In this document: one piece after another, positions 19,080 through 49,093 of the stretch
How positions within the stretch are numbered: the stretch's first letter is position 1
Layout of the letters: every line of letters starts with the position of its first letter
Source: a bacterium
Lineage (GTDB): Bacteria > Lindowbacteria > 2-12-FULL-62-27
Direction: 5' to 3'
Length of the DNA stretch: 64,000 nucleotides
Assembly (NCBI GenBank): GCA_016202645.1
Contig: JACQOF010000097.1
Span: forward strand, 1-64,000
Notes under the pieces: generated by a model
What the model saw: only the letters and a program-made list of their open reading frames with translations
Databases searched by the model: none
Told to the model about the DNA's origin: nothing
Made by a program: the position numbers and the translations under genes

Positions 19080-19109
19080 GGGAGCAGATAATGTCCGACA
19101 TGTCCCGCT

Positions 19110-19193: not shown

Positions 19194-19203
19194 TCTCGCC
19201 GAC

Positions 19204-25685: not shown

Positions 25686-27437
25686 TCAATCCACCGGTGT
25701 GGACCAATCCTCGCACTGTCCGCAACGGTCGTAAACCTCGGAATAGCGGCCTTCCCGGTGCAATCTCCTCCCGGATTCCATTTGATCCCAGATATCTTGA
25801 AATGACGTGACCTCCATGACGTTGGCAATCCTCGTATCCGGGGATGGCGCAAATACCCGGTCACACAAAACGATACTGCCATCCGTCTTGATAAACACGC
25901 TGCGTGCCAATCGACTGCACATAAACCGTTTTAAAGGAGTATAGACGGCAAGCCGTTTGTCCGGAGTTTGTCCGGCGTAGGTGGATGCCCCCTGAATGAC
26001 CAGATGCTCGACCATATGACCTTCTCTGTAATATTGCCGGCGCGCGGAAACCTTCATGTCATTTGGCGGATTTTTACCCAGCCGGGCCATGTATTGATCG
26101 ACGCGCGTATAAGAGGACATGAATTCGTCGATGTGATCATCCAATTCCGCAATTAACGTGGTCGTCAGCGCAACGACGGGATTGACGTTCGCAGTATCCT
26201 GGTGTTGCAGGTGATGACGTTTCAGTTCCAGGAAGCGATGAATATTCTTCCGGACGGTATGGAAATCACCGCCCGGACGGACTCTGAGGTAATGCTCCTG
26301 ATCCACCGCGTCCAGGGATATCATCACGGAATAAACAAAAGGGTGCAGCAATTCCCGGGCGATTTCCTCTGTCAGACATCTCCCGTCTGTATAAATATGG
26401 ATGGGAGACCATGGGGCTTGGCGCTCCGCCGCCCGCTTGACAATATTCAGAATGTCCGGAAAGGATGGATTCTGCAATGGCTCGCCCAATCCACTCAAAT
26501 GCAGGGGTATCCTCTCCCGGCCGGCCAGAGTATATATCCGATCAAAGATTTCGGGTGTCATGTAGGGGGGAAGAGTATCCGGCTTTCGCCAATGGTTTAA
26601 AGGAGAGTAGATCGCCGGATGATCATTGACCGCGGAGACTTCAAGCCAGAGCGATCGGATTCGATGAGTTTCCAGAAAATCGCTCGTTTCCTGAAGCGTC
26701 AGGATTTTATAAACATCCAGGTGAGACACCGGCTCCTTCAGAATATTGCCGATTTTTCGATAGGCGCTGATCATGCCCCCATATGTAAAATCGAGCAGCC
26801 CACTGCTCAGGAAGTTGGAGTCCGGCTTCCGCCCCCTTTTTTTTGAGATGTCCGCGCGATACGAGGTGACCGCAGGACCGTACTGAGCATTGAGTGACGT
26901 GAATAATTCATGCGGAGATATGGTTGGCCGGGATTCCGCCAGGCTGATCAATTCCGGCATTTTGGAATGAAGTGAACGATGGATGAGAACCATCTGCCAT
27001 CCGGTAAAAGCGCCGTTGATCACACAGACATGGTTGTTCCGGCTGGCCTGCTCAAGCGCGAATTTAAACGCATCCGAATCGAAGAAGGTCGACAAAGGCG
27101 GAAGAGGCGCGGTCATCCAGGGCGTGTTCATAACCTGGATGGCGGACTGAAAAAGCTTAAGGATGGAAGATATATTGAAGATCGAGGTGGATTCACTTGC
27201 TTCGATCAACGTAATCGGACGGCCGATCTTCCCAATCTCGTTTTCACAGGCCGCCCGGGTTTGAGGTGTCACCGCCGCATACACAGACCGAATTTCCTCA
27301 CAGCTTTCACCTCTCTTCACCACGGCCGCAAACAGGCTCTCCTCTCCAATCGGCTCAAACCACTTCAAATCAATGGCGGGAATTAACAAGCCGGACGTCA
27401 TTTCAAACCCTCTGACTCCGGGATCCTGTCCACCCAT
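25686..27437 (-). CDS. SPASM protein with degenerate radical-SAM core and SpsF-like N-terminus (paralog 1)
   Basis: 583 residues from the ATG at 27437, chosen for the strong GAGGAGG ribosome-binding site five bases upstream. Residues ~15-215 resemble a degraded SpsF-type nucleotidyltransferase. Residues ~260-480 follow the radical-SAM barrel: EVSAVNDHPAIYSP (266-279) lies where EVT..C...C..C is expected, but the three cysteines are Asn, Ala and Ser; LSGLGEPL (314-321) matches the usual Gly-rich SAM segment and MISLDAV the later strand. A C-terminal SPASM region keeps four cysteines (507, 525, 572, 575). So radical chemistry is unlikely. It lies downstream of a Maf glycosyltransferase gene. 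Spirochaete proteins called spiro-SPASM may be relatives (from memory). Confidence 0.8.
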   Translation of the reverse strand: MGGQDPGVRGFEMTSGLLIPAIDLKWFEPIGEESLFAAVVKRGESCEEIRSVYAAVTPQTRAACENEIGKIGRPITLIEASESTSIFNISSILKLFQSAIQVMNTPWMTAPLPPLSTFFDSDAFKFALEQASRNNHVCVINGAFTGWQMVLIHRSLHSKMPELISLAESRPTISPHELFTSLNAQYGPAVTSYRADISKKRGRKPDSNFLSSGLLDFTYGGMISAYRKIGNILKEPVSHLDVYKILTLQETSDFLETHRIRSLWLEVSAVNDHPAIYSPLNHWRKPDTLPPYMTPEIFDRIYTLAGRERIPLHLSGLGEPLQNPSFPDILNIVKRAAERQAPWSPIHIYTDGRCLTEEIARELLHPFVYSVMISLDAVDQEHYLRVRPGGDFHTVRKNIHRFLELKRHHLQHQDTANVNPVVALTTTLIAELDDHIDEFMSSYTRVDQYMARLGKNPPNDMKVSARRQYYREGHMVEHLVIQGASTYAGQTPDKRLAVYTPLKRFMCSRLARSVFIKTDGSIVLCDRVFAPSPDTRIANVMEVTSFQDIWDQMESGRRLHREGRYSEVYDRCGQCEDWSTPVD

Positions 27438-27543: not shown

Positions 27544-29364
27544 TCATGAGATCAGGGCAGCCTCCAGGGCGTCTAGAAAGGGGTCGATAAAGGTCCGCGC
27601 GGCCCGGACCGCCTGCTGCCGCCGGCCGGCATGGTCCCTTTCCGGCTCGATCCGGAGTACCGTTTTCAGCCGGATCCCGATATCGTAAGAACCCATCGTG
27701 GCCATGTCGTCCAGCGATATGCCGCAGATGTCCCGCAAGTCCTGAAAATCGTCGAGCCTGTCGAGTTCGCGGCGGACATGGCGCAACCGAAGGATCGACG
27801 CGTTCCGATCAATATCGTGGCCCACGGCCGCACAGCGCGCAAGTCGGTCATCAATGTCATTACGGTCAGATATCCGGCCGTGAGCGGCCCTGTTCAGAAA
27901 CTCCTCCACGCTCATGAGCGGATATCCCTTCAGAACCGCGCCCCGGCTGTTGCCGATGACCGCGCAGGCAATGCCGGTGTCGGCGGAGGCACTTTCCATC
28001 CAGTGTTTATACATCAGCAGAACCCGGTTCGTGTCGACCCGCCCGCCGGAGTATGCCTGGACTTTCACGCGGGCTTTATCGGATACGTCCGAATAAACTC
28101 GATATTCCGGCGGTATAAAACGGCTCGGCTGTGGAAACATGCTTCGGTACTGGTTGCTGGATCGGCTGTGGGTCAGGCGGCCGGGATAAGACAGATCCAC
28201 GCCGACCAATCCAATGGGCCGGCATCCGGCTCTCCATGCCAGGTCAAAAGCCGCGGTGATGACGGAGCCGCCGTTCTGAAGAAACCCGGTATGTGTCCGC
28301 AGGATATGTTCGAGCAGGGGCAAAAGGCCATTCTTGAATTCAACCACCCGGTCGCCCGTTTGGGTCAGAAGATGTCCGGTCATTGACATGATTCGCCGCC
28401 GCGCGGGATACCGGACAGGGATCAGGGGATGGCAGAAACTGTCAAACAGCAGGATGGATTCATGCGCCGGAAGGTTCTCAAAGTCCCTGACGTTGGCGGG
28501 CAGGGAATCGACGGCAAGGATGACGTCCGGGATGACCCCGGCGGCCAGCAACGTGGCCAGTGCGGTGTCAACCGCGATGATCAGGCTTCGGGGTCGCAGA
28601 CGGGCCAGCGTATCCATGTTGTCATCGAGACTGGGGCCGGCGCCCACGAGAACCGCCGGAATATCCTGAAACGCGCCATGAAATCCACGGACCGGCGCGG
28701 ACGTCAGCAGCGGCTTCAGGTTCTCAATCAAATTCCGGTTCCAAATGTCCCATAAAACGGATTTGGTCCGTTCATCGATATCGATCTCATTTAGATGGCG
28801 CGCCACGACGGCCCGGAGATTGTTCAATTCGACTGAGAAAATGTCCGCGTAGGACGACAATGATTGAATATGGCCGGATAGATCAAGCCCATCCTGATGA
28901 AACTCCCGAAGGGCCTGCACGGCCAGGTCGTCCGCCCGCCGACCCGCGACCAGTTTCACCCGGGCGTCGCCCAGCAGGGCCCGCAGATCGACGCATTCCA
29001 GAAGGCTCCGGAAAATCCGTATGTCGGGTTCAACCATAATGATCCCGCCGCCGGCCGGCAGGCGTCCCAGGACCGCTTCCGCCAGATATCCCATTCCAAT
29101 ACCGAATACAACGTGCGCGGCAGGCGCCCGTCCGGGCCGCGGGACACCCTGCGCCATCCGCTCCGCTTCCCTGACGGGATCGCGCGGACTGTGAATGTAT
29201 TTTCCGCATAACCGAAAATTGTTGATGCGTCCACCGCCCCGGTCATCGCCGTGAATCCATTCAATGTCCGGATGCCCCCCGGCGCGGGCCAGCTCCTCGG
29301 CCAGGTCCGGGTACCGATGTTTGAGAATCAGCAGGTGATCAGAGAGGTGAGTGTGCTGTTTCAT
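27544..29364 (-). CDS. Maf/DUF115 glycosyltransferase (MptE-like), motility-associated factor family
   Basis: 606 residues. The central VGAGPSLDDNM segment (240-250), a Rossmann-like region around VVFGIGMGYL (85-93) and the SVITAAFDLAWRAGCRPIGLVGVDLSY block are characteristic of Maf proteins, which transfer nonulosonic acids (pseudaminic, legionaminic) onto flagellin Ser/Thr in other bacteria. NeuB and a NeuA-PseG fusion occur 15 kb away, which fits a nonulosonate donor. Flagellar genes are not in the window, so flagellin as acceptor is only a likely guess. No signal peptide is visible. Confidence 0.85.
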   Translation of the reverse strand: MKQHTHLSDHLLILKHRYPDLAEELARAGGHPDIEWIHGDDRGGGRINNFRLCGKYIHSPRDPVREAERMAQGVPRPGRAPAAHVVFGIGMGYLAEAVLGRLPAGGGIIMVEPDIRIFRSLLECVDLRALLGDARVKLVAGRRADDLAVQALREFHQDGLDLSGHIQSLSSYADIFSVELNNLRAVVARHLNEIDIDERTKSVLWDIWNRNLIENLKPLLTSAPVRGFHGAFQDIPAVLVGAGPSLDDNMDTLARLRPRSLIIAVDTALATLLAAGVIPDVILAVDSLPANVRDFENLPAHESILLFDSFCHPLIPVRYPARRRIMSMTGHLLTQTGDRVVEFKNGLLPLLEHILRTHTGFLQNGGSVITAAFDLAWRAGCRPIGLVGVDLSYPGRLTHSRSSNQYRSMFPQPSRFIPPEYRVYSDVSDKARVKVQAYSGGRVDTNRVLLMYKHWMESASADTGIACAVIGNSRGAVLKGYPLMSVEEFLNRAAHGRISDRNDIDDRLARCAAVGHDIDRNASILRLRHVRRELDRLDDFQDLRDICGISLDDMATMGSYDIGIRLKTVLRIEPERDHAGRRQQAVRAARTFIDPFLDALEAALIS

Positions 29365-29515: not shown

Positions 29516-31612
29516 ATGGGAATTCGTGCGGAGGTACCCAGGAAAATTTATTTTGCGGACTTGACGCACACCGCGCAAGGCATCAGTGCGGCGACGTTCC
29601 CGCTGGGCGTCAGTTTTGTCGCGTCCTACGCGAGAAAGATGCTGGGGCCGGCCTATGACGTCCGCCTTTTTAAATTTCCAAACGATCTGGATGAGGCCCT
29701 CAGAGAGGATCCGCCCGATTTTCTCGGCATGTCCAACTACAGTTGGAATTTTCGCCTGGCGTCGACGGCGGCCGCGGCCGCGAAACGCCGGGATCCGCGT
29801 CTAACGGTGATTTTCGGCGGCCCTAATTTCCCCATCGATCCTGGTGAAAAAACGGATTTCCTGACAAACCATCCATCGATTGATTTCTATGTCGAGCTTG
29901 AAGGGGAACTTGGATTTGTAGCGCTGATCCAGGCCTTGGAACGGAATGGCCGGGATGCGGGCCGCCTGAAGGAATCCGGCGAGAAAATCCTGAATACCAC
30001 GTATCTTTCGGATGGGGTCCTGATCAGCGGTCCCATCGAGCGGATCCACGACGTCAATCTGATTCCATCCCCCTATTTGACGGGGGTGCTAGACCACTTT
30101 TTTACTCAGCCGCTCGCGCCGATGATCGAAACCACCCGCGGGTGTCCTTTCACCTGCACGTTTTGCGCGGACGGCCTGGACATCAAAGGCCAGGTGCGCC
30201 GGTTTACGGACGGCCGCGTCCGGGAGGAGTTGCGGTATATTGCCGGGAAAATCCGGAAAAGCGATGAGATCATCATCACGGACCTGAATTTTGGCATGTA
30301 CAAGGAGGATCGGGAGACCTGCGAGGCCATCGCCGACGTTCAACGAACGTATGACTGGCCGGTTCTGGTCAAGGGGTCGGCCGGAAAAAACAAGCCGGAA
30401 CGGATCATTGAAGCCGCGTCGATTCTCAAGGGATCGTGGCTGATCGGATCGTCCATCCAGTCGTCCGACCCGGACGTCCTCAGGTCCATCAAGCGCGGGA
30501 ACATCTCCCGGGAGGCGTTCACGCGGTTTATCGAGTACGGAAACAGCCTCAGCGGAGATTCGCTGACGTATACGGAGATCATCCTGGGCCTGCCGGGCGA
30601 CACACGGGACAAGCATTTCGAGTCACTCCGCTACGGCGTTGAGAACCGCGTCAACAGCCTGCGGATGTATCAGGCCATTTTGCTCATGGGTACGGAGATG
30701 GCCACGCCGGAGTGCCGCCGGCAATTCGGTTTAACCACCCGATTCCGAACGATTCCGGGATGCGTGGGCATCTACCGGTTCCTGGGCGAGGATCTGCCGG
30801 TGGCTGAAATCGAGGAGATCATCGTCGGAAGCCGCACAATGTCCTTCTCGGACTATGTGGACTGCCGGGTGATGAATCTCTTCATCGAGACGTTTTACAA
30901 CAATGCTCTCTTTGAGGAAGTTTTTCAAATGGTTCGAACATTGGGAATGTCCGTATTTGACTGCCTGGTCTATATGAAAACCCATCCGGAATTATACAGC
31001 CCTAAAATTCGCTCCGTCCTGGACAGTTTTGTGAATCAAACGCAGAACGACCTCTATGAAACATTGGAACAGGCGGAGTCCCGTCTTCTGACGCCGGAGA
31101 TCATCAACCGGTACATCGGCGGCGAAATGGGGATCAACGAGCTTTTGGTCCACAAGGCCTGTCTCTATCTGGAACTCGACGACCTCGCGGATCTTCTTCG
31201 GAAATCCGTCCGGAGCATTCTGGAGGAAGCCGGGCTCTATACGCCTCCCGTGGCGGAATACCTGGGTCAGCTGATTCGATTTTTGGTCCATCGAAAAAAG
31301 AACATCACGAATACCCGGCACAGGATCGCTGACCGGTTCACGTACGATTTTGAGGCCTTCAGTCAGCTCGATTACCGGGTTGACCCCAACCGGATTGCCC
31401 CTGGAAACGAAATCGAATACGTTTTTTTTCATGATGACAAACAGCAAAAACATATCCAGACCCAGTACACCCTGTATTCGGATACGCCCATGGGGTTGGG
31501 CCGTTTTATTCAGAGATGTAATTTCAAGAAAATGTACAGACGCTTTCGCCCACAATCCATCGAGTCCCGGTCGGCGCCGGATCCGGCGGTCCTGGCGTCC
31601 CAGACCGCCTGA
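29516..31612 (+). CDS. Radical SAM protein with B12-binding-like N-terminal domain
   Basis: 698 residues. The N-terminal ~150 residues have the fold pattern of B12-binding radical SAM enzymes (PLGVSFVASYARK; VIFGGPNFP), but the DxHxxG cobalamin-His motif is not seen. The iron-sulfur motif CPFTCTFC is intact at C210, C214 and C217, following ETTRG. A helical C-terminal region of about 250 residues follows. A homolog of similar length lies at 46946-49093. Such enzymes do methylations, cyclisations or other radical steps. Being the first gene of an operon with a glycosyltransferase, methyltransferase and aminotransferase, it probably acts on a glycan or glycolipid precursor. Confidence 0.85.
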   Translation: MGIRAEVPRKIYFADLTHTAQGISAATFPLGVSFVASYARKMLGPAYDVRLFKFPNDLDEALREDPPDFLGMSNYSWNFRLASTAAAAAKRRDPRLTVIFGGPNFPIDPGEKTDFLTNHPSIDFYVELEGELGFVALIQALERNGRDAGRLKESGEKILNTTYLSDGVLISGPIERIHDVNLIPSPYLTGVLDHFFTQPLAPMIETTRGCPFTCTFCADGLDIKGQVRRFTDGRVREELRYIAGKIRKSDEIIITDLNFGMYKEDRETCEAIADVQRTYDWPVLVKGSAGKNKPERIIEAASILKGSWLIGSSIQSSDPDVLRSIKRGNISREAFTRFIEYGNSLSGDSLTYTEIILGLPGDTRDKHFESLRYGVENRVNSLRMYQAILLMGTEMATPECRRQFGLTTRFRTIPGCVGIYRFLGEDLPVAEIEEIIVGSRTMSFSDYVDCRVMNLFIETFYNNALFEEVFQMVRTLGMSVFDCLVYMKTHPELYSPKIRSVLDSFVNQTQNDLYETLEQAESRLLTPEIINRYIGGEMGINELLVHKACLYLELDDLADLLRKSVRSILEEAGLYTPPVAEYLGQLIRFLVHRKKNITNTRHRIADRFTYDFEAFSQLDYRVDPNRIAPGNEIEYVFFHDDKQQKHIQTQYTLYSDTPMGLGRFIQRCNFKKMYRRFRPQSIESRSAPDPAVLASQTA

Positions 31613-36423: not shown

Positions 36424-36452
36424 TTGACAACCATGAGGCTGGGACGTACAGA
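36424..36452 (+). promoter_or_regulatory. Candidate promoter of SPASM paralog 2
   Basis: TTGACA (36424-36429), 17-base spacer, TACAGA (36447-36452). It overlaps the first possible ATG (36452); transcription would start near 36459, suiting the internal Met codon at 36464. Confidence 0.35.
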
Positions 36453-38188
36453 TGTGTCTTGAAATGACTGTGTCGGCCGGGCTGATCATCCCTGTGTTTG
36501 ATTTGAAATGGTTCGAAACAATTGGTGAAGAGCACCGGTTTTTGGCCGCCGTTCGGAATGCGCAGAGGTGCGCTGAAATCCGATCCATTTTTGCGGCTGT
36601 CACACCGCGGACGCGAAAGACCTGCGAAATCGAAATTCAAAAATTTGGACTGCCGGTTACGCTTTTGGAAATGGGTGATTCCATTCCCAGACAGACGGCG
36701 TTGCTGTTGAAGTTCTTTCAAGCCGCTTTCGAATCTGGAGAAACGGAGTGGCTGGTCGGCCTGGCAGCGCCCTATTCCAGCTTTTTTGACAGGCAGGCGT
36801 TTACATTTGGTCTGCAGATGGCCGTCCGGGCCAATTCCACATCCGCGGTCTGTGGAGCCATTCCCGACTGGTCGATGTTGTTTTTACACCGGTCGGTCAT
36901 TCCCGGATTGAACAATTTGATCCATCTCGCCGAATCCTGCGACGGCGAAAATTTACATTCGGTGCTTCAGACGCTGAATGACCGGTATTCGGTTTTGATC
37001 CACGCTTACCGGGCGGAAATTTCCAAGTCGCTGGGCAAAGCGTTTAACGCCGGCTTGTTTAGGAGCTGTTTTGTCTCCTATTCCGGCAAGACAATCGATC
37101 ATTACCGAAAAATAACCGAACGGTTGGGTTGCCCGCTTTCCGAATTGCGAATGGACAGGATTCATGGCCTTCTGGAAACGGGTGATTTCTTAAACGTGGG
37201 TCGACCGAATTCCCTGTGGGTTGAAATTTCCGCGGTCAACGATGTTCCTCCCATCTACTCACCGTTAAATCATTGGAAAATCCCGAAAGAGTATCCCCCC
37301 TATATGCCCTTCCCCGTATTCTCCAGGCTGTGGAGCCTGGTGACCTGGGATATCGCTTCCTGCCCTGCCATACATCTGGGCGGATTGGGAGAACCGCTGC
37401 AGCATCCGGATTTCATGGAATTTTTGGAGCTGATCCATCATACGCAGGAGGGAGGGGCATTAATTCCCAATGTTCACTGCTACACGGATGGCCGATGCCT
37501 GACCGAAGACATCGCGCGGAAACTCGTTCTGGGTGTCATCCAATCCGTCATGATTTCACTGGATGCCGTGGAAGAATCCTATTACCGGAAGGTCCGGCCG
37601 AACGGTGATTTTCAGGCGGTGAAGAGGAATCTGGATCAACTGCTGGAATTGAAGAGGCAAAAGCAGGCGCAGGGGAAGGGTTCGGGAGTGCTGCCGGGCG
37701 TGGCCCTCGCGACCACGATGATATCCGAGCTGGTAGATCATCTGGATGCCTTCATGACGTCCCATATGACGCTCCACCGCTTTGGCTTGAAACTCGGTAA
37801 GAATCCCTTGCTTGAAGCCAAGCGGGCCAGTGCGGCTCAATATTTTAAAGAGGGGCACGTCGTCGAGCATCTGGTCATTCAGGGCGCATCGACCTTTGCC
37901 GGCCAAAATCCGGACCGGCGGCTTGCCATCTACACCCCACTCAAACGCTTCGCCTGCCGCCGGTTGTCCCAGACGCTTTTTGTCAAGACGGACGGGAGCA
38001 TCGTTTTATGTGACCGGGTCTTTTCCCCGGACGCATCAACCCGGATCGGAAATGTGATGGAGGTCGACACGTTGCAGGAACTCTGGGATCGCCTGGATTC
38101 GAAACGGCGGATGCACAGCGATGGAAAATATACGGAAGCGTATGAAAGATGTGGTTCTTGCGAAGACTGGTTTATACCGGTCGACTAG
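36452..38188 (+). CDS. SPASM protein with degenerate radical-SAM core and SpsF-like N-terminus (paralog 2)
   Basis: 578 residues from 36452; the Met at 36464 (MTVSAGL) aligns with MTSGLL of paralog 1 and may be the real start. The N-terminal ~220 residues match the paralog's SpsF-like region. EISAVNDVPPIYSP (258-271) replaces the canonical radical-SAM cysteine motif: the three Cys positions are Asn, Pro and Ser. HLGGLGEPL (308-316) and MISLDAV (367-373) are kept, as are four SPASM cysteines (502, 520, 567, 570) at the same spacing as paralog 1. The two proteins share long near-identical blocks. Probably non-catalytic for SAM cleavage but able to bind an auxiliary cluster. It lies immediately before the sulfation genes cysQ and sulfotransferase. 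Confidence 0.8.
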   Translation: MCLEMTVSAGLIIPVFDLKWFETIGEEHRFLAAVRNAQRCAEIRSIFAAVTPRTRKTCEIEIQKFGLPVTLLEMGDSIPRQTALLLKFFQAAFESGETEWLVGLAAPYSSFFDRQAFTFGLQMAVRANSTSAVCGAIPDWSMLFLHRSVIPGLNNLIHLAESCDGENLHSVLQTLNDRYSVLIHAYRAEISKSLGKAFNAGLFRSCFVSYSGKTIDHYRKITERLGCPLSELRMDRIHGLLETGDFLNVGRPNSLWVEISAVNDVPPIYSPLNHWKIPKEYPPYMPFPVFSRLWSLVTWDIASCPAIHLGGLGEPLQHPDFMEFLELIHHTQEGGALIPNVHCYTDGRCLTEDIARKLVLGVIQSVMISLDAVEESYYRKVRPNGDFQAVKRNLDQLLELKRQKQAQGKGSGVLPGVALATTMISELVDHLDAFMTSHMTLHRFGLKLGKNPLLEAKRASAAQYFKEGHVVEHLVIQGASTFAGQNPDRRLAIYTPLKRFACRRLSQTLFVKTDGSIVLCDRVFSPDASTRIGNVMEVDTLQELWDRLDSKRRMHSDGKYTEAYERCGSCEDWFIPVD

Positions 38189-38216
38189 TGGGGACAAGAT
38201 AGTTTCTCTGACGGAA

Positions 38217-38990
38217 GTGGAGCGTATCCTGCGCGCTGCCGCGGACATCGTCCATTGCATTTACAGGCAGGGGACGGATTCTTCCAGAAAGGCCGACGGC
38301 TCCTATCTGACCCGCGCCGATACCGAGGCAAATCAATTCCTGCAGCAGGAACTCCTCAGGATCCTTCCGGCCGCGGCGTGGATATCCGAAGAAAGCGCGG
38401 CTGACGCGGACCGTCTGAAAAAGGACTGGGCCTGGGTGGTTGATCCGCTGGATGGAACGAAGGAATTTGTGCGCCGCGTCCCGGAATTCGCCATTTCGGT
38501 TGGGCTGGTTTTCCGACAGCAGGTCCGGCTGGGGGGGATTGTGAATCCCGTGACGGGAGAAGGCGCCGTGGCCGAAGTCGGCGGCGAGTCCCGTTTTTGG
38601 AATCTCCCCACGCCCCGCGCGCCGGCGGCGGCGCTTGCGGAGGCATATGCTTGTGTGAGCCGGACGGAAACGGAGAAGGGTCTTCTCAAGCCGTATCTGA
38701 ACATGGTGGGGTTCACACAGCCGGTGGGAAGTATCGCCTACAAGTTGTTGCGGGTGGCGGCCGGCGTGGATCATCTGACATTTTCCGTCGAGCCGAAATC
38801 CGAATGGGACATCTGTGGGGGTGTTGCGTTGCTCACCGCGGTCGGGAAGACGTATCGCCGTCTGGACGGCCGCCCATTGCGGTTCGGACAGCCGGATCTT
38901 CGGATTCCCTGCGGAGCCGCCGCCGGCCCTGAAACCCTGGTATCGGCGTTTGTGTCGTCCTGGGAACGCTTATTTTCCGGCGTCCGCTGA
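38217..38990 (+). CDS. cysQ: 3'(2'),5'-bisphosphate nucleotidase (PAP phosphatase), CysQ-like
   Basis: 257 residues from a GTG at 38217; in-frame ATGs at 38121 and 38142 would overlap the preceding gene and are less likely. The metal-binding signatures EE (58-59), DPLDGT (76-81) and the late EWDICGG segment place it in the inositol monophosphatase/CysQ family. It would hydrolyse PAP released by sulfotransferases, and the next gene is one. With Sat and CysC nearby, the assignment is well supported. An inositol-phosphate phosphatase role cannot be excluded from sequence alone. Confidence 0.85.
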   Translation: MERILRAAADIVHCIYRQGTDSSRKADGSYLTRADTEANQFLQQELLRILPAAAWISEESAADADRLKKDWAWVVDPLDGTKEFVRRVPEFAISVGLVFRQQVRLGGIVNPVTGEGAVAEVGGESRFWNLPTPRAPAAALAEAYACVSRTETEKGLLKPYLNMVGFTQPVGSIAYKLLRVAAGVDHLTFSVEPKSEWDICGGVALLTAVGKTYRRLDGRPLRFGQPDLRIPCGAAAGPETLVSAFVSSWERLFSGVR

Positions 38991-40174
38991 TGGATGACGC
39001 GCCGGTCGCGATGCCGACCCGGGTCGTGGCGATCCTGACCTATACGCGCGCCGGCAGCGGATTGATGGCAAGCCTGCTGGATTCCCATCCAAACATTCTC
39101 AGTACGCCGGACTGTCTGCTCATGGATTTTTATGAATTTTGGGAGGAATACGGTTCTGAGAGCGCCGATCAGATCATCCCGGCGTTCATGGACCACTATG
39201 CCGTCATTTTTGACGCCCGGGCGGAAATCCGGTCGTCACGGATCCCCCCGGGCGAAGGAGACTATTTGAATCTGACACGTCTGGGAGAGAGCCGCTCGGA
39301 ATGTCTGCATGTCGATCAAGCCCTCTTTCGACGGCATCTGTCTCAACTGCTGGGCGCTTCGCGCGTTTCGCGAAGATTGTTTTTTCAAGGGATTCACACA
39401 GCCTACACTCGCGCGCTCGGCCGCACGGTGACGCGGCCCCTCATTCAATTCAGTCTTCACATTCCGAAACCGGCCTCCGTTCGGAAATTGCTCGAAGATT
39501 TCCCCGACACCTATTTTTTACAAATGGTCCGCCATCCCCTGCGGGGGATGGCTTCCCACTTCAGGCTGGCGTGTCGTTTCAACATCCACACGGAACCCCG
39601 CCGCGCGCTCAAGATTATCCATGCCGCGTTCCAGGGCGGGGTGCCCGTTCCCGCGGAATTTCGGGATCGCTGGCGGGCTGTCCGGCTGGAGGACGTGCAT
39701 ACCCGTCCCCGCGAAACCCTGGAGAAAATATGCGAATGGCTTGATCTCCCGTGGAATGACATTCTTCTCAAAAGCACTGTAAACGGAAAACTCTGGTGGA
39801 ATGAAAAAAACACGGTTCAGGTCAGCGGATTCAGCCAGGCCATCCTCTCGCAGAAATTTGAGGAATACCTGCCGGCATTTGACCGGATTCGATTCCAGAT
39901 CATTTTTGCGCGGAAATGCGCGGCATGGAATTATCCGGCGCCGGCGTGGAGCCGGAATTTTTTTGTAAAGATGCTTCTTTTTCCGCTGGCGCTGGTTGTC
40001 CCGTTTAAAATGGAAAGAATCTGTTTGATGGCGAGTCTGGATGCCCCGCCGCCGCGGGCCTTTTGGAAACGGATGTGGTCCGTCTTCCACGCCCTGTATC
40101 TTGGGCGAAGATTCGTATTTCGAGCCTGGATCCCGTCTGTTCGGCCCTCTCCGGAGGAGGTTTCTCTGATCTGA
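38990..40174 (+). CDS. Sulfotransferase (paralog 1)
   Basis: 394 residues. The 5'-phosphosulfate loop resembles TYTRAGSGLMASLLDSHPNI (17-36), and a 3'-phosphate segment MVRHPLRGMASHF (179-191) follows at usual spacing. The C-terminal region is hydrophobic around residues 320-335 (FVKMLLFPLALVVPF), suggesting membrane association. PAPS would come from the Sat/CysC operon. It is coupled to cysQ by a TGATG overlap. The acceptor is presumably a glycan of this island (inference). A second sulfotransferase lies at 53.5 kb. Confidence 0.85.
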   Translation: MDDAPVAMPTRVVAILTYTRAGSGLMASLLDSHPNILSTPDCLLMDFYEFWEEYGSESADQIIPAFMDHYAVIFDARAEIRSSRIPPGEGDYLNLTRLGESRSECLHVDQALFRRHLSQLLGASRVSRRLFFQGIHTAYTRALGRTVTRPLIQFSLHIPKPASVRKLLEDFPDTYFLQMVRHPLRGMASHFRLACRFNIHTEPRRALKIIHAAFQGGVPVPAEFRDRWRAVRLEDVHTRPRETLEKICEWLDLPWNDILLKSTVNGKLWWNEKNTVQVSGFSQAILSQKFEEYLPAFDRIRFQIIFARKCAAWNYPAPAWSRNFFVKMLLFPLALVVPFKMERICLMASLDAPPPRAFWKRMWSVFHALYLGRRFVFRAWIPSVRPSPEEVSLI

Positions 40175-40179
40175 ACCGA

Positions 40180-41229
40180 TCAGCCCGGCGTACCGGGCAA
40201 ATCAATGCTCTCCACCCGCCTGCTGTTCTCAACCGCGGGGAAGAGGCGCGCCTGGGCGGCGTCGATGATGCGCCGCATGTGCATGACACTCTCCAGCGGA
40301 TATCTTCCCACCGCCGTCTCTCCGGAAAGCATGATGGCGCCTGCGCCGTCCAGCACCGCCGTCGTGACGTCCGTCACCTCGGCGATGGTCGGGAACGGCT
40401 TTTTGATCATGGAGTGCAGCGTTTCCGTCGCGATGATGACCGATTTCGAAAGCCGCCGGGCTTCCACCAGCACATCTTTCTGGACCAGCGCAATGGCGGC
40501 CAGCCGGGTTTCGGCGGACAGGTCGCCGCGATCGAGCATCAGCATGTCCGAGGCCTCCATGATTTCTTGAAGGCGTTCGAGCGCGCCGCGGGTCTCTATT
40601 TTTGAGACGATCCGCGCGCCGGACTTTCCAATCAGCCGGCGGACACTTTCCACATCGCGCGAATGTTCGACATAACTCAGGCCCAGGTAATCGACCGGGG
40701 ACTCGGCGGCGAAGGCGATCAGCCGCCGGTCCTGATCCGAGAGGAACTCCAGCCGCGGCGTCAAATGAGGAATATGCACGCCCTTCCGGCTTCGTAATTT
40801 CCCGCCCACCCGGACCCGGCAGTAGATGTCCCTGTCGCGGATTTCTTCGACAGACATCTGGATCGTGCCGTCCGTCGCGAAGATGGGTTCTCCCGGTTTC
40901 ACAAACAAGTGCAGATCTTCAAACGTCACCGAGACCTTGACGCGGCCGTCATGGCCCGGTTCAGACGTCAGCACAATCGCGTCTCCGGGCGCCAGATCCG
41001 GTTCATGCGCAAGCTGACCTGTCCGGATTTTCTTTCCCGGAACGTCGAACAGAATGAGTACGTCCGGCGCGATCCTTCTTAACCGGCGGATGACACGGGC
41101 ATGCCAGTTCAAATCGGCTTGCGAACCGTTCAGCCGGGCGATATTCATCCCATTCTGGGAGAGAAGCCGCAGGGCCGTCGGAGACTGGGTGCGCGGTCCA
41201 ATCGTGGCGACAATTTGAACGGGAGTCAT
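40180..41229 (-). CDS. Pyruvate kinase-like protein lacking the C-terminal domain
   Basis: 349 residues, about 120 shorter than usual pyruvate kinases: the C-terminal (alpha/beta) regulatory domain is missing. Catalytic residues are mostly kept: RLN (32-34), D62 and R69 in FDVPGKKIRTG, K210 and E212 in SKIET, D236 in RGD, T268 in IATET, and LSGETAVGRYP. Changes include Q for His in the SH region and PGKK for KGPE. It is the last gene of a sat-cysC operon (ATGA overlap with sat). It may regenerate ATP for sulfate activation or have another role; both are inferences. Confidence 0.82.
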   Translation of the reverse strand: MTPVQIVATIGPRTQSPTALRLLSQNGMNIARLNGSQADLNWHARVIRRLRRIAPDVLILFDVPGKKIRTGQLAHEPDLAPGDAIVLTSEPGHDGRVKVSVTFEDLHLFVKPGEPIFATDGTIQMSVEEIRDRDIYCRVRVGGKLRSRKGVHIPHLTPRLEFLSDQDRRLIAFAAESPVDYLGLSYVEHSRDVESVRRLIGKSGARIVSKIETRGALERLQEIMEASDMLMLDRGDLSAETRLAAIALVQKDVLVEARRLSKSVIIATETLHSMIKKPFPTIAEVTDVTTAVLDGAGAIMLSGETAVGRYPLESVMHMRRIIDAAQARLFPAVENSRRVESIDLPGTPG

Positions 41230-42311
41230 TCTTCCTGGGTGATAAACAGATCAAAATCCCGGATGCTCGCCAGAACTTCCGGCCGCATGATTTCCGGCGG
41301 GATCTGACGGCCGTTTGAAAGGATGGCGCGCAGATCGGTGCCGCTGATGTCCTGGATCGTTCCGGAATTCAGGCCGGCATGCGGGCACGTCCGTTCCGTG
41401 GCGATGCCATCGCATCGGGAGCAATAGAAGGGACCGGCGAATCGAAAGATGCGGATGCCGAGTTCCGGCTCAAAATGTTTTGTCAGTTCATGGGCGTCGT
41501 ATTTGCCGTAATAGGAACCAACCCCGGCATGATCCCGTCCGACAATAAAATGGGTGCAGCCGTAATTTTTACGAATGATGGCGTGAAAGACCGCCTCCCG
41601 GGGGCCCGCATAGCGCATGAATGTCGAGAGGACGCCGAGAAGGACCCGCTGGGCCGGAAGAAACTGATCGACCAGGGTACGGTAGGCCGCCAAAATGGCG
41701 TGGGGGGCAAAATCCCCGCGTTTTTTCTGGCCGACCAGGGGCTGGATGAACAATCCGTCAACTTGTTCCAGGGCGAGGCGCTGCAGATATTCGTGCGCCC
41801 GGTGGGGAATGTTTCTGGTTTGGAAACCGGCCACCGTTTTCCATCCCAGTTCCCGGAATCGCGCCCGCGTTTCCTCGGGCGTCAGTTCATATTCAGAAAA
41901 TTCAAACTCCACCCGTTCAAGGAGCCGCGCCTTTCCCCCGACAAAGAAGTTTCCGGCGGACATAAACGCCGCCACCCCTGGATGCCGGACGTCCGTTGTG
42001 CCGAAGACCCGTTCGGCGACGTCTAATTTATCGCACCTGTACACGCTTTCCGTATGGACCTCCCCAACCGGCCGGTTCTGGAAGACGAGCCGGATCATGC
42101 CGGCCCGGCGGGCTTCGGCGGCCTGTTCTTCCGCGAGATCGAGAACGATTGGCAGGGGGAAAGGCTGCCCGTCGGGCAGACGCATCTCATTGACGACGGA
42201 ATGAAATTCCCGCTCGGTCATGAATCCGCTCACGGGCGCAAACGCGCCGAAGGATATTTTTTCGAGTTCCAGGTACTGGTTCCGGTTGATGGGAATCGTC
42301 GCGGTCGTCAT
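41226..42311 (-). CDS. sat: Sulfate adenylyltransferase (ATP sulfurylase)
   Basis: 361 residues. Catalytic QTRNIPHRAH (164-173), GRDHAGVG (258-265) and a zinc site C297, C300, C309, H311 identify the homo-oligomeric Sat family, without a fused kinase domain. It makes APS from sulfate and ATP for the following CysC reaction. The gene overlaps both neighbours by ATGA, forming cysC-sat-pyk. Its location among sulfotransferases suggests assimilation for glycan sulfation rather than for cysteine, since no APS/PAPS reductase is nearby. Confidence 0.95.
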   Translation of the reverse strand: MTTATIPINRNQYLELEKISFGAFAPVSGFMTEREFHSVVNEMRLPDGQPFPLPIVLDLAEEQAAEARRAGMIRLVFQNRPVGEVHTESVYRCDKLDVAERVFGTTDVRHPGVAAFMSAGNFFVGGKARLLERVEFEFSEYELTPEETRARFRELGWKTVAGFQTRNIPHRAHEYLQRLALEQVDGLFIQPLVGQKKRGDFAPHAILAAYRTLVDQFLPAQRVLLGVLSTFMRYAGPREAVFHAIIRKNYGCTHFIVGRDHAGVGSYYGKYDAHELTKHFEPELGIRIFRFAGPFYCSRCDGIATERTCPHAGLNSGTIQDISGTDLRAILSNGRQIPPEIMRPEVLASIRDFDLFITQEE

Positions 42312-42835
42312 ACCGGCGGGAGGACCCGGGCAAATCGGGGAATGGTCATCGCCACGCGTCCGGCCAGATCGTCCGGCGGCTCAAGCTCGTCCATCCGGAG
42401 GGTCAAATCGGCCCTGGCCGGCGGGTGCCAGGGGATGTCGATGCCGACGACGTCCCGGATTTCTCCGGCCTGGGCCCGGGCATAGAGGCCTTTGGAATCC
42501 CGCTGTTTGAGCGCGTCAAGGGAGGATTGGAGATAGATCTCAAAGTATTCGTGGAGGTGTTCCCGATTCCAGCGGAGGAGATCCGGATGGGAATAGACAA
42601 CGGCGACCAGGACGATCAGACCCTGGTCCGAAAGCATCTTCGCGAATCTCTGGACCCGTTTGATCTGAATGGTTCGATCCGCTTCTGTATGACTCAGATC
42701 GTTTCCGAAAACCTCGCGGATTCCGTCTCCATCCAGAAGCACGATTTCCGGAAATTCAGGTTTCAGGAGCCGGCCCAAGGCCCGGCACAGAGTGGTCTTG
42801 CCGGCGCCCGAGAGGCCCGTCACCCAGATCACCAT
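42308..42835 (-). CDS. cysC: Adenylylsulfate (APS) kinase
   Basis: 175 residues with P-loop GLSGAGKTT (7-15), LLDGDGIR and the later GLYARAQAGEI segment of APS kinases. It phosphorylates APS to PAPS, the donor for the two sulfotransferases. It is the first gene of the three-gene minus-strand operon; a divergent AT-rich spacer separates it from a methyltransferase. Confidence 0.95.
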   Translation of the reverse strand: MVIWVTGLSGAGKTTLCRALGRLLKPEFPEIVLLDGDGIREVFGNDLSHTEADRTIQIKRVQRFAKMLSDQGLIVLVAVVYSHPDLLRWNREHLHEYFEIYLQSSLDALKQRDSKGLYARAQAGEIRDVVGIDIPWHPPARADLTLRMDELEPPDDLAGRVAMTIPRFARVLPPV

Positions 42836-44130: not shown

Positions 44131-45852
44131 TCAGGCAACGGCCGCGGCTGCCTGCTCGCTTCTGAGGATGATGTCGACGATGCGTTCCACGCCGCGGCCG
44201 TCGTAGAGGAGGCGGCCGTTTCGGCTCATTTTTTTTCTCCGCGATGAATCAGCCGCCAGCCGGCGCAGGGCCGACCGGATGTCTTCGACCGAGACGTCCG
44301 ATTCATTCCCGAGGTATTCGATGGTCCCCAGTTCCATGAATTTTTGCACCCGCTGGGCCTCCCGATCGTTCTGAGAAATGACGACAGCCGGGATGCCGAA
44401 ACAGGCAAGCTCGTGGAGCGTCAATCCGCCGCCGCAGACGGCCACATCCGCTCCCGACATGGTTGCGCCCATGTCTTTCATCTGCCGCAGGATTTCAAAC
44501 GGCCGGGATATCCGCCCGAGCAGGGATTCAAGGCCCTGCTCATGGGCGAACGCCGGGCCCAGCACGATCTTCACGTCCACGGCCGCGCCCAACTCCGCCG
44601 CGGCCTCCACGGCTTTGAGGGTCAGTCCGTTTGGATCGCTTCCGCCGAACGTGATCAGGAGCTGCCGGACGTTTTTCCGAAACCCCCGGGTCCGGCCTCC
44701 GGCCCGTTCGGCGAATTCCCGGCCCAGGGCCGCGAAAGACGGGCCTGAATAACAGGGCACCGGCGGGTCGACGTTCGATTTCAGATAACTGACGATAACG
44801 TCGGTGAGCGTGTCTGTCAGGTCCATTGGAATGTCGTCAAGACTGTCGACCACGTTCACAGTAAAGACATTGAAGGCTTTTAATTGCGCCAGATAGTCTT
44901 CATCCAGTATGGGCAAATCGTTCACGACCACGTTCGGTGAAAATTTGATGATTTCATCCATCACGGCCGAGCCGTCCTTTTCCGGGCAGACGGCCAGATC
45001 GTAGCCCCGGCTTTGAATTTCCGCGGCGGCGGGAGTGTCGGCCTGAGTGATGAGAAATCGCATGATCGCGGAAGACCGCCGTTTGATTTCATCGGCGATT
45101 CTCAACGAGCTGACCACATGGCCCATCCCCATCTGGGCCGACCCATCCGTCTTGAACATGATTCTCGGCCCCTGGAGCATCTGTTCGGCCATCCAAAAAT
45201 CATTCAGGCTGTGGACGCTGACGGCGGCTTGCCGGGGCAGAAGATGCATGCCAAGCCGTCCGGCGTATCTCTGCCGCCGGTCGGCGTTTTTACGGGTGTA
45301 GATATAAATGGCGCCATTCTCCAAATAAATGGGCCGGCGACGCTCGCGTTCAATTCTCGGGAGGTTCCGGTATTCCACATCGTGGAGCGGCCGCGGCACG
45401 CCGCCCTCTTCCGTCCACAAAAAACCGTCCTCTTCGGTCACGCTGAACAAGGCGTCCAGCCGGTCCTCCCGGAATTTCTCCCACGCATCCTCAATGTGCC
45501 GCGCGGTGCGAAAGGGCGTGCTGCACGGCAGGAGCACCACAACGTCATAGGCGACACGGTCCATCGATTCGGCCACCTCCAGGGCATGGCGGACGACGTC
45601 GTCCAGGGACCGGTTGGTCTGCGAGAGTTCCCTGGGACGCAGGACCGGCACGGAGGCGCCGTAGGACTGGCTGATGGCGCGGATGCGGGAGTCATCGGTC
45701 GACACAAAAATGCGGTGAATGAAATCGCACTCCCGCGCCGCGCGGATCGTGTAGGCCAGAAGCGGAATGCCGTTCAGAGGTTTGATGTTCAGGTATGGAA
45801 TCTTGTCATTCCCGGCGCGCGCGGGAATGACCGCGAGGACTTTCGGCGTCAC
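44131..45852 (-). CDS. Fusion of acylneuraminate cytidylyltransferase and PseG-like glycosyl hydrolase
   Basis: 573 residues. Residues 1-~228 form a CMP-nonulosonate synthetase domain starting VIPARAGNDKIPYLN (8-22), with LLPCSTPFR in the middle. Residues ~230-573 resemble PseG (FKTDGSAQMGMGHVVSS; VNDLPILD; FGGSDPNG; GGGLTLHE), which removes UDP from a UDP-linked amino sugar in pseudaminic acid synthesis. Such fusions put two nonconsecutive steps in one chain. Its 5' end contains a palindrome with arms like REP family 1 (45805-45831). It follows neuB with 22 bases between and is probably co-transcribed. Confidence 0.88.
   Translation of the reverse strand: MTPKVLAVIPARAGNDKIPYLNIKPLNGIPLLAYTIRAARECDFIHRIFVSTDDSRIRAISQSYGASVPVLRPRELSQTNRSLDDVVRHALEVAESMDRVAYDVVVLLPCSTPFRTARHIEDAWEKFREDRLDALFSVTEEDGFLWTEEGGVPRPLHDVEYRNLPRIERERRRPIYLENGAIYIYTRKNADRRQRYAGRLGMHLLPRQAAVSVHSLNDFWMAEQMLQGPRIMFKTDGSAQMGMGHVVSSLRIADEIKRRSSAIMRFLITQADTPAAAEIQSRGYDLAVCPEKDGSAVMDEIIKFSPNVVVNDLPILDEDYLAQLKAFNVFTVNVVDSLDDIPMDLTDTLTDVIVSYLKSNVDPPVPCYSGPSFAALGREFAERAGGRTRGFRKNVRQLLITFGGSDPNGLTLKAVEAAAELGAAVDVKIVLGPAFAHEQGLESLLGRISRPFEILRQMKDMGATMSGADVAVCGGGLTLHELACFGIPAVVISQNDREAQRVQKFMELGTIEYLGNESDVSVEDIRSALRRLAADSSRRKKMSRNGRLLYDGRGVERIVDIILRSEQAAAAVA
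45805..45831. repeat. Palindrome with REP-like arms in the start region of the NeuA-PseG gene
   Basis: Arms GTCATTCCCG (45805-45814) and CGGGAATGAC (45822-45831) equal the terminal arms of REP family 1. They encode the conserved VIPARAGND segment of the cytidylyltransferase. Convergence or a REP remnant are both possible. Confidence 0.6.
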
Positions 45853-45874: not shown

Positions 45875-46936
45875 TCACGCGCTCAGCATGTCCCAGGACA
45901 GAACGTCGCCGCGGGCGATGTCCCGCCGCGCAATTTTTCCCAGGATCTGTTCCAAGTCCTTCGGCGCAATGCCCGTCCCGGGGCGCTTGATCCCGACCGC
46001 ATCCGCGGAAATTTCCCGGCCCGCGGGGATGTTCCGGACCGCGACGACGCTTCGCCTGGCCAGGCGCCGGGATTCCGCTTCCGAGTCGGCGGGGCATTTC
46101 ACGGCTGATCCTGCCGCAGTCCTGATGTTTTCGGCCATTCGCCGGAGTTCCCGGAGTTGATCCGGAGTCATGGAAAAATGCTGATCCGGGCCGGGAAGGG
46201 CGCGGTCGATGGTGAAATGTTTTTCGATGGCGCAGGCGCCCATCGCGATGGCCGCCAGAGAAATTTCGATGCCGTCCGTGTGGTCGGAAAATCCAACCGG
46301 GCAGCGAAATTGGCGGAGGGCCTCCATCTTGCGCAGATGCGCGTCCCGGGGCTGTGTTGGATAATTGTTCACGCAGTGCAGAAGCACCCGTTGGCGGTTT
46401 CCCTCGGACTCAATGACCTCCACGGCCTCTTCCACTTCATCCAGCGTCGACATGCCGGTGGACAGAATGATGGCCTTTCCGGTCCGGGCGGTTTTTCGGA
46501 GCAGCTGAACATAGGTGAGATCGCCGGAGGCAATCTTGTAGCAGTCGACATTCATGGATTCGAGGAAATCCACCTTGTCCTCGCTGAAGACGGACGCGAA
46601 GAACAGAACTCCCAGCCGGTCCGACAGGGACTTCAAGTCCCTCCATGCCTGGTCGGACAATTCCATCCTGCGAAAGAGGTCCATCTGTGTACCTTCAGCT
46701 TTTACGGCATAAACCCCCGCCTTTTCGACGACCAGCGACTCCGCGGAAAAACACTGGAACTTGACGGCGCTGGCCCCCGCCAGAAACGCCTCCCGGATCA
46801 TTCGTTCCGCCAGACGCGGATCGCCATTGTGATTGATGCCGATTTCAGCGATGAGAAACACAGGCTGATCCGGGCCGACTTGATGGGACCCGATGGAAAC
46901 GCCCGCCCCGGCGCCGGTCATGGTTTCCGCCGACAT
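45875..46936 (-). CDS. neuB: N-acetylneuraminate/pseudaminate/legionaminate synthase family protein
   Basis: 353 residues. The NeuB TIM-barrel domain (~20-275) has AEIGINHNG (30-38), AVKFQ and SDHTDG; the C-terminal SAF/antifreeze-like domain is ~285-350 (RSVVAVRNIPAGREI). It condenses phosphoenolpyruvate with a hexosamine to a nine-carbon nonulosonic acid. Downstream CMP-activation and PseG-like domains favour a pseudaminic- or legionaminic-type product over sialic acid, but not decisively. Start at 46936 has an AGGGGGGC ribosome-binding site. The gene lies nine bases after a radical SAM gene. Confidence 0.9.
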   Translation of the reverse strand: MSAETMTGAGAGVSIGSHQVGPDQPVFLIAEIGINHNGDPRLAERMIREAFLAGASAVKFQCFSAESLVVEKAGVYAVKAEGTQMDLFRRMELSDQAWRDLKSLSDRLGVLFFASVFSEDKVDFLESMNVDCYKIASGDLTYVQLLRKTARTGKAIILSTGMSTLDEVEEAVEVIESEGNRQRVLLHCVNNYPTQPRDAHLRKMEALRQFRCPVGFSDHTDGIEISLAAIAMGACAIEKHFTIDRALPGPDQHFSMTPDQLRELRRMAENIRTAAGSAVKCPADSEAESRRLARRSVVAVRNIPAGREISADAVGIKRPGTGIAPKDLEQILGKIARRDIARGDVLSWDMLSA

Positions 46937-46945
46937 GATGCCCCC

Positions 46946-49093
46946 CTATGCGGAGGGGGAGGATCCCATCAGGCCTGAAGCCACGAGGGGGGCCGCGGCG
47001 GCGTCCTCCGCCGGCCCGGCGATTCGCAGTGCGTTCCTGAAGAATTCACGGACGGTGACGACGCGGGACAAAATAATTCCCAATCCGATCGGGGACGATC
47101 CATATCGGCGGATGGCGTTTTTCAATATCGTTTGCTGGGTTTCCGTATGAGAGAAAAGATACCTGACGGCGCTGCCGCCGGGTCGGTGATAGTCCTCCAG
47201 CGGCCGTGCATGCCGTTCTTCCTTCCAGCCCAAAATATCATATTGAAATTCCACTTCCCGGCGCTCCAACTGACTTGCGATTTCAAAAAGATTCGACAGT
47301 TTATGCCAGATAAACGTTCGAATATCCGCCAGTTCGGCCCGGCACATCGCCCGATCCTCTTCGGTGGAATATTTTGCGGCCAGGAGCTTCAAAGCCGTCG
47401 AAATGCCGTAGTCCAGAAAATCCTCAAATGCGTAGACAAATATCTTCCCGCAAGTGTTGAAGAGCAGATTTCCGCCGCTTTCGCCGTTCGTCAGTTTCCG
47501 ATAGTTTTCGGGTTTTTGATAAAAGGCGTTGATCTCCTCAGGACTGTCCCAGACTTCCTCCTTTGTGGCCTTGATAAAATCCGCGAGGGTCTGCCGCAGC
47601 CCCGATGGGGCGGAATGGTCAATCTGGCTGTACATTTCAGTCAGCCAATCAAAAGGCGATATTTCTTTTTGGGTTAAATATTCCAGGAGTTCGACGAAAT
47701 AATCATCGTTGTAATAACAGGCCGCCATCAAGTGAAATCCCCGCAGATACAGGTAATCCTCAAAGCGCAGCGTATTCGTTTCCGTGCACACTTCCTCGAT
47801 TTCAATCGCCTGTATTCCGTGATAGGTCCCGAAATCGCGCGGGATAATTCGGAATTTCCCCTTCATTCCATATCGCGCGCGGCTTGCCGGCGAGTTCAAT
47901 TCCGTTCCGTCGAGCATCATCAGCGTGTGCATCCGGATGTTTTTGACGCCGGTATGGATGAGCGCCTTCATGCCCCGCAGGTAGCTCTCCCGCGATTCGC
48001 CCGGCAAACCGAGAATGACCTCCGCATAGGAATGCCGCCCGCGGCTTTTTAAATCGTCGTGAATTTTCATGTAGGTGTCCAGCTTGATATTGGACCGGCG
48101 GATATTTTTCAAAACGTTTTCGTCCATCGATTGTACCGACATGCTCATGGTGATCCCGCTGCCGATGGTTTCGATGGCCTCCACAATGCGCTCATGCTTG
48201 TTTTTCCCGGTCGTCACGGAAATATTGGTTGGCCATCCCGTTTTTTCCCTCACCTGGCGGATGGTCCGGCAAATTTCAAAATCCTGCGGATACATCGCGA
48301 AATTCGAATCGGCCACCTGCAATGTCTTCACCAGGGAGTCGCGCATTCTCTCCCCGATATAGGCGAGTTCTTCCTTGATTCGTTCCGGGCTGAAGATATG
48401 GACCTTGTTGAAATAGTCCGCGCCCTCGTGACAGAAGGAACAGGTGAAGGGACACCCGCGGTTGGATTGGATCATGGGTGTGAGGCGGCCGTCAAAAAAG
48501 GCGTCCAGAGCGCCGGATAAATAGGGAGACGGGATTTCATCCAAATTTTTAATCCGGTCCGGCAGGCCCCCCCGGACCAGAAGCCGGCTTTCGGCGGAAT
48601 AAAAATGGCAGCCAAGGATCGGGGACTGTTTCATTTTTTGGATGTCCCCGCCGCAGTTCATGAACCGTTCGATTAATTTGCTGAAAGAGATCTCCCCCTC
48701 CAGGTGAACGTAGAAATCGACAAAGGGCCTCTTTTTTAAATAGGTGTCCTGGTCTTTCTCATTCGCCGGATATCCCGATCCGCCCCAAACCGTCACCGGC
48801 GCCGGCCGGCGGCTTTCCTTCCCGAATTTCAATATCGCCTCGGAAAGCGCGCTGCACCAGGGATAATTGCTGAGGCCGAGAATGTGGGGGGTTTCCTCCT
48901 TGAGCGCTGAAATGAGATCATCCGGGTATTTGAACAAACGGATGTCCACTTCGTCCCGGAATATTTTTCGAGCGTAGGTTGATACGAAACCGATGTTCAA
49001 CGGAAAGATATCGGAGGCGATCGATACAGATGTATGCGAAAGATCCCCCAGATATATTTTTATTCCGGCGATGGCCCTGTCCCCCCTCCCCAT
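46946..49093 (-). CDS. Radical SAM protein with B12-binding-like N-terminal domain (homolog of 29.5 kb gene)
   Basis: 715 residues. The N-terminal part (SDIFPLNIGFVSTYARK; WGGSGYP) matches the 29516-31612 protein, and the iron-sulfur motif CPFTCSFC is intact at C214, C218 and C221. As in the homolog no DxHxxG cobalamin motif is evident. It heads the operon with neuB and the NeuA-PseG fusion, so it may modify the nonulosonic acid or its carrier (inference). It starts at a GGCGGAAATGTC-ATG region driven by one side of a divergent promoter. Confidence 0.85.
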   Translation of the reverse strand: MGRGDRAIAGIKIYLGDLSHTSVSIASDIFPLNIGFVSTYARKIFRDEVDIRLFKYPDDLISALKEETPHILGLSNYPWCSALSEAILKFGKESRRPAPVTVWGGSGYPANEKDQDTYLKKRPFVDFYVHLEGEISFSKLIERFMNCGGDIQKMKQSPILGCHFYSAESRLLVRGGLPDRIKNLDEIPSPYLSGALDAFFDGRLTPMIQSNRGCPFTCSFCHEGADYFNKVHIFSPERIKEELAYIGERMRDSLVKTLQVADSNFAMYPQDFEICRTIRQVREKTGWPTNISVTTGKNKHERIVEAIETIGSGITMSMSVQSMDENVLKNIRRSNIKLDTYMKIHDDLKSRGRHSYAEVILGLPGESRESYLRGMKALIHTGVKNIRMHTLMMLDGTELNSPASRARYGMKGKFRIIPRDFGTYHGIQAIEIEEVCTETNTLRFEDYLYLRGFHLMAACYYNDDYFVELLEYLTQKEISPFDWLTEMYSQIDHSAPSGLRQTLADFIKATKEEVWDSPEEINAFYQKPENYRKLTNGESGGNLLFNTCGKIFVYAFEDFLDYGISTALKLLAAKYSTEEDRAMCRAELADIRTFIWHKLSNLFEIASQLERREVEFQYDILGWKEERHARPLEDYHRPGGSAVRYLFSHTETQQTILKNAIRRYGSSPIGLGIILSRVVTVREFFRNALRIAGPAEDAAAAPLVASGLMGSSPSA

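Follow-up and report, generated by a model that had tools for sequence, protein, structure and literature searches.

Paired spiro-SPASM-like proteins of Lindowbacteria without the radical-SAM cysteine triad, and sequence evidence for repeated triad loss across their family

Radical-SAM chemistry requires a cluster held by a CxxxCxxC motif, and in active enzymes a GGE motif holds the amino group of SAM. Look-alikes of the pseudo-radical-SAM/SPASM kind are already named in NCBIfam; these include TIGR04347 (pseudo-SAM/SPASM), for which we know of no N-terminal cytidylyltransferase domain. The family nearest to the proteins described here, TIGR04321 (spiro-SPASM), is also known, and our literature search found no text that names it. 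BtrN offers a direct view of an auxiliary cluster in the absence of the catalytic one, since its C16A/C20A/C23A triple mutant retains the auxiliary cluster; the purpose of twitch and SPASM clusters in general is considered an open question (PMC9012708). The flagellins of Treponema denticola bear an essential glycan (PMC9481697).

We analyzed a window of 64,000 nucleotides, the whole stretch of Lindowbacteria contig JACQOF010000097.1 under study, which encodes two such look-alikes. W1 (36452–38188, + strand, 578 residues) joins a cytidylyltransferase-like N-domain to a radical-SAM-fold barrel without the Cys triad and a twitch domain; its paralog W2 (25686–27401, − strand) comprises 572 residues counted from an ATG, with a possible upstream TTG start at 27497, and is 49% identical to W1 over the full length. 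The original prediction, made from the window alone, held that all three radical-SAM Cys are replaced in both proteins, and this is what we find. Alignment with Cys-bearing relatives places the altered motif of W1, EISAVNDVPPIYSP, at residues 258–271 (37223–37264, + strand), where N263, P267, and S270 occupy the Cys positions, and that of W2, EVSAVNDHPAIYSP, at 26601–26642 (− strand), with N, A, and S. The features then listed as common to both paralogs, PLNHW, GLGEP, MISLDAV, and four C-terminal Cys (C502, C520, C567, and C570 in W1), are recovered in the alignment as well. GLGEP (37382–37396, + strand) corresponds to the GGE motif and, apart from an L/I exchange, does not vary among the five Lindowbacteria proteins; with this element retained, the proteins might still bind SAM or a different ligand.

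Besides W1 and W2, close relatives were found only in two other genera of the same taxonomic family, both Candidatus Lindowbacteria in public records; one of these genomes encodes a pair of paralogs and the other a single protein. These three full-length proteins also lack the triad, which is missing in 5/5 Lindowbacteria proteins from three genera, and all five conform to a cysteine-free E[ILV]S[AS]VNDxPx[IV]Y. Five concordant genes rule out a frameshift or assembly error and confirm that the altered motif is real, a product of neither chance nor assembly. The only Cys invariant across the five proteins are C40, C502, C520, C567, and C570. The original prediction had considered that a different Cys trio within the barrel might complete a 4Fe–4S site; C342 is the only Cys of W2 from the motif to the twitch domain, which leaves nothing from which such a trio could be formed, and a replacement trio is ruled out. 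No further full-length copy, Cys-bearing or otherwise, was detected in the genome from which the window comes (G000; 2.9 Mb, 82% complete) at the search sensitivity used.

The profile searches and structure prediction suggested at the outset were carried out and agree on the domain assignment. Both window proteins exceed the Pfam gathering scores for Radical_SAM (PF04055; 33.7 and 36.7 bits versus 29.5) and SPASM (PF13186; 29.3 and 26.9 bits versus 21.5), and TIGR04321 is their best NCBIfam match. By its Cys spacing, the auxiliary site follows the one-cluster twitch pattern rather than the two-cluster SPASM pattern. This putative twitch (half-SPASM) site, C502-X17-C520-X46-C567-X2-C570 (37955–38161, + strand), has the CX17C…CX2C spacing found in 75/75 aligned proteins, every canonical relative aligned included. 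Two AlphaFold models of W1 of moderate confidence (pLDDT 67.5 for the whole protein and 64.1 for the C-terminal part) predict a radical-SAM/SPASM barrel, with residues 248–578 matching anSMEcpe (Z 15.8), SuiB (15.7), MoaA (14.5), BtrN (13.9), and also PqqE (13.8–15.8 over all five); confidence is lowest for the altered loop and for the twitch region, so the position of the loop rests on the sequence alignment. BtrN is the first match of the family profile among solved structures (4m7t, E 1e-27), and a PDB search with the five-sequence Lindowbacteria profile alone returned only noise. An HxxEH stretch at W1 residues 469–473 was considered as a sign of an M16 peptidase and dropped, since the segment of relatives with which it aligns is the barrel strand VIIQKYDxFCG.

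The N-terminal part of W1, residues 6–245 (36467–37186, + strand), is predicted to adopt an SpsF-like cytidylyltransferase fold (VIA-align to 6oew_A, Z 17.6 over 219 residues). In the model, residues 6–253 superpose on nucleotidyltransferases, best on the Leptospira cytidylyltransferase 6oew, which the N-domain family profile also matches with E 4.4e-7. The glycine-rich NTP loop of 6oew (ARMGSTRLPGK) has no counterpart in any of the five Lindowbacteria N-domains and is likewise missing from the aligned spirochaete N-domains; the D-x-P-F strand is kept by most spirochaete members and lost in Lindowbacteria. A W1-type protein therefore looks dead in both enzyme domains. Across the five Lindowbacteria genes, in which synonymous sites are near saturation and the comparison is restricted to pN, pN is 0.28 in the twitch domain, 0.29 in the altered motif region, 0.36 in the barrel, and 0.46 in the N-domain. 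The altered loop thus matches the twitch domain in conservation and is not in decay; recent decay of W1 and W2 is ruled out by this comparison.

W1 and W2 match TIGR04321 with E 2e-27 and 6e-22 (95.9 and 77.9 bits), below its cut-off of 250 bits, and we therefore call them spiro-SPASM-like. They show the domain order of that family (cytidylyltransferase-like, radical-SAM-like, twitch) and are ~20% identical to its spirochaete members. In a family tree computed without the motif columns, they fall outside the spirochaete clade (support 99/95); the Lindowbacteria clade (100/99) groups instead with L138, L059, and L066 on long branches, and L138, a triad-bearing protein of 584 residues from genome G120, is sister to Lindowbacteria (98/89), itself on a long branch. 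The kinship with spirochaete spiro-SPASM proteins, originally offered as a possibility, is thus supported by profile and tree, though both proteins lie under the family cut-off. The canonical radical-SAM/SPASM protein encoded at 57754–58710 of the window, with its Cys present, served as an outgroup; one alignment that misplaced its motif was set aside.

TIGR04321 is near-universal in Spirochaetota, occurring in 177 of 198 sampled genomes at E<=1e-50; the phylum concerned, that of genome G305, is taken to be Spirochaetota because the family is named for spirochaetes. The copy in genome G432 lies at 300 kb, which we take to be the expected place of TPASS_0285. One paper annotates the product of this T. 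pallidum gene as an iron-sulfur SPASM protein (PMC4403809). Among 72 TIGR04321 members, CxxxCxxC is intact in 22 and lost in 49, with the remaining one having three Cys at altered spacing, and all four twitch Cys are kept in 71. The sole spirochaete member with a replaced twitch Cys (CCCS; L123, 298–1908) has lost the triad too and may be without any cluster. The tree requires 14 changes of triad state (bootstrap 13–15), at least ten of which are imposed by branches with good support, and a topology constrained to unite the triad-less proteins in a single clade is rejected (p 0.0003). Given triad-bearing outgroups, these changes are mainly losses, and on this tree the triad appears to have been lost at least ten times across the family. 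The Lindowbacteria loss looks separate from those in spirochaetes, and a single loss common to Lindowbacteria and two other triad-less lineages, L059 and L066, is not rejected (p 0.076). Recurrent triad loss is described in no paper that we found, most subscription journals lying outside the search. This recurrence, the degenerate cytidylyltransferase domain, and the twitch-type auxiliary site go beyond the original prediction.

The surroundings of the two genes support the earlier guess of a part in glycan or flagellin modification. Directly upstream of W2 lies a gene for an MptE-like/PseD-like (Maf-type) protein (27544–29364, − strand; Pfam PF01973, E 2e-32), which matches NCBIfam FlagModPseD with E 5e-11, under its cut-off; W1, unlike W2, does not adjoin a Maf gene. 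The window also encodes a NeuB/PseI-type nonulosonate synthase (45875–46936, − strand; NeuB_NnaB, E 2e-107), a fusion of a PseF-like cytidylyltransferase and a PseG-like hydrolase identified by NCBIfam profile search (44131–45852, − strand), and a stand-alone nucleotidyltransferase of SpsF-like type, whose RMTSTRLPGK loop is intact and which has homologues in related loci (2325–3074, + strand), together with aminotransferase and sulfation genes. Genes for sulfate activation and transfer, which include ATP-sulfurylase-like and APS-kinase-like genes and two sulfotransferases, occupy 38121–42835 and 53489–54955 and suggest a sulfated glycan; a CysQ-like phosphatase ORF overlaps the end of W1. The locus also encodes two KedN5-like B12-binding radical-SAM proteins, at 29516–31612 and 46946–49093 (E 1e-46 and 6e-57, both under the cut-off). 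In two genera of Lindowbacteria, a 179-residue protein without a Pfam match is encoded beside the pseudo-radical-SAM gene (window, 25097–25636; L146, 8316–8855). ORFs at 18967–19836, 24–2267, and ~52330 contain translated repeats (DPRFRGGDG, RESGNP..WIPAFAGM, SPSPQPSPSKEGEG) that look like REP/MITE-type inserts.

Related loci have a similar composition. The Cys-bearing relative in G120 is located between two Maf-like genes in a pseudaminic acid–Maf–flagellin locus, accompanied within ~40 kb by PseB and NeuB (PseI/NeuB) above cut-off, PseG just below it, a PseC-like gene and a weak PseH match, as well as FliD-like, FlaG-like, and several flagellin genes, and the relatives in G069 and G210 have NeuB, PseF/PseG-like, and SpsF-like genes as neighbors. 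Among 58 spirochaete genomes picked by hand for comparison, a CTP_transf_3 (SpsF-type) gene follows the spiro-SPASM gene directly, on the same strand and within 1.4 kb, in at least 36, the count being a lower bound, with gaps of 15–1310 nt; many spirochaete copies, for example those of G461 and G166, do not adjoin a cytidylyltransferase. Three of the CTP_transf_3 loci continue with genes for a fusion of PseG-like or methyltransferase type and for an ATP-grasp protein. A conserved gene for ~317 residues without a Pfam match sits between the spiro-SPASM and SpsF-type genes in three Treponema-like genomes (L187, 11236–12339; L188, 10067–11017; L189, 7439–8389). Flagellin is found in 197 and an MptE-like protein (PF01973) in 190 of the 198 Spirochaetota genomes, and spiro-SPASM is missing from all eight that lack PF01973, a joint absence that amounts to about two events, one family of seven genomes plus G529. 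The Lindowbacteria genomes have flagellin and six to seven MptE-like genes.

The overall best explanation, and in our judgment a probable one, is that W1 and W2 are accessory Fe–S proteins of CMP-sugar glycosylation that are dead for SAM chemistry. With the triad gone, the radical-SAM cluster cannot form and SAM cannot be cleaved reductively, and W1 and W2 almost certainly perform no radical-SAM chemistry. The case for a pseudo-enzyme is strong, and the original reading that fold and auxiliary-cluster site were kept agrees with a predicted barrel, a triad missing in all five proteins, and a retained CX17C-X46-CX2C arrangement. By analogy with BtrN, whose triad-less mutant keeps its auxiliary cluster, one [4Fe–4S] cluster is probably held by the four remaining Cys, and the twitch site quite likely holds Fe–S. 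A role in nonulosonate-type glycosylation is favored to a somewhat lesser degree by gene context: the protein would be an accessory in decorating flagellin or some other surface protein with CMP-activated, nonulosonate-type sugars, and would work alongside a cytidylyltransferase (SpsF/PseF) and a transferase of Maf/PseD type. How it would do so is a matter of conjecture. The dead cytidylyltransferase domain may pair with an active SpsF/PseF enzyme or hold the CMP-sugar, the barrel and twitch domain may dock the acceptor protein or the Maf-type transferase, and the cluster may be a structural or redox-sensing element; that a W1-type protein is specifically the partner of an SpsF-type enzyme is a tentative guess.

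Of the other readings, the most probable makes W1 and W2 zinc proteins, with Zn on the four Cys and a pure scaffold role without redox function. A four-Cys site that includes a CX2C pair is able to bind zinc, but spacing and domain match those of BtrN, where four Cys are the established ligands of an auxiliary [4Fe–4S] cluster (PMC9012708), and the spacing is also that of the canonical radical-SAM/SPASM proteins in our alignment; we regard zinc as unlikely. Less probable still is a surviving catalyst with a barrel cluster or metal on non-Cys ligands, such as N263 and D264 or invariant His, Asp, and Glu (e.g., H308, H342, and D346), and a non-canonical use of SAM. The invariance of VNDxPxxY in five proteins, the retention of GLGEP, and the strong constraint on the loop would fit such an enzyme, whereas the barrel has no conserved Cys (just one Cys in W2), and the replacing residues vary so widely among triad-less spirochaete members that the family cannot share a common new ligand set.

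It is highly improbable that the N-domain is a real cytidylyltransferase carrying out the main function with the barrel as an appendage, for despite a fold that matches CMP-sugar synthetases and IspD, the NTP loop of 6oew is missing in the aligned N-domains of Lindowbacteria and spirochaetes alike, the D-x-P-F strand present in most of the latter is gone in Lindowbacteria, and intact SpsF/PseF genes occur in the same loci. Least credible of all is a decaying relic under weak selection whose fold persists by chance. The frequency of triad loss in the family would fit decay, as would an N-domain that is the least constrained part of the protein (pN 0.46), but the genes are open and full-length in three genera, two genomes keep two copies, the altered loop is constrained like the twitch domain, and the twitch Cys persist in 71/72 spirochaete members. 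The relic reading is largely refuted.

More surprising than W1 and W2 themselves is the frequent convergent triad loss in a near-universal spirochaete family with the auxiliary site untouched. If the explanation as accessory Fe–S proteins holds, radical-SAM folds can be retained for an auxiliary cluster and a barrel function without radical chemistry; the fold has repeatedly been retained in this way, probably as an aid to sugar attachment on proteins such as flagellin. At least ten evolutionary repeats in one family would then provide a natural experiment on the purpose of twitch/SPASM clusters, and a near-universal, uncharacterized spirochaete family, T. pallidum included, would probably take part in nonulosonate-type or flagellar glycosylation. 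A bolder and more doubtful extension is that the radical-SAM cluster is dispensable family-wide, the working part being the lone twitch [4Fe–4S] site with the dead cytidylyltransferase; these proteins might then be Fe–S accessories or redox sensors of CMP-sugar protein glycosylation that evolved from radical-SAM enzymes many times, with Lindowbacteria gaining the conserved loop VNDxPxxY at the old cluster position.

Among described systems, classical Maf/PseD flagellin glycosylation (e.g., Aeromonas caviae Maf1, PMC4065374) brings together Pse/NeuB functions, a Maf-type transferase, and flagellin, all of which are likewise found beside relatives of W1 and W2, whereas a need for a radical-SAM-like protein is not reported in the papers found on these systems. 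TIGR04347 resembles W1 and W2 in being a radical-SAM look-alike with a SPASM domain, but W1 matches it with E 0.14 and 11.4 bits against a cut-off of 525. TIGR04321 shares the three-domain architecture and the link to SpsF-type genes, and many of its members are also triad-less; W1 and W2 differ from it in forming a separate clade under its cut-off, at the low identity given above. Finally, BtrN (4m7t) has, as W1 and W2 do, a barrel followed by a twitch domain and an auxiliary site of four Cys spaced as CX17C and CX2C; unlike W1 and W2, it keeps its CxxxCxxC cluster, oxidizes a free aminocyclitol, and has no N-terminal cytidylyltransferase domain.
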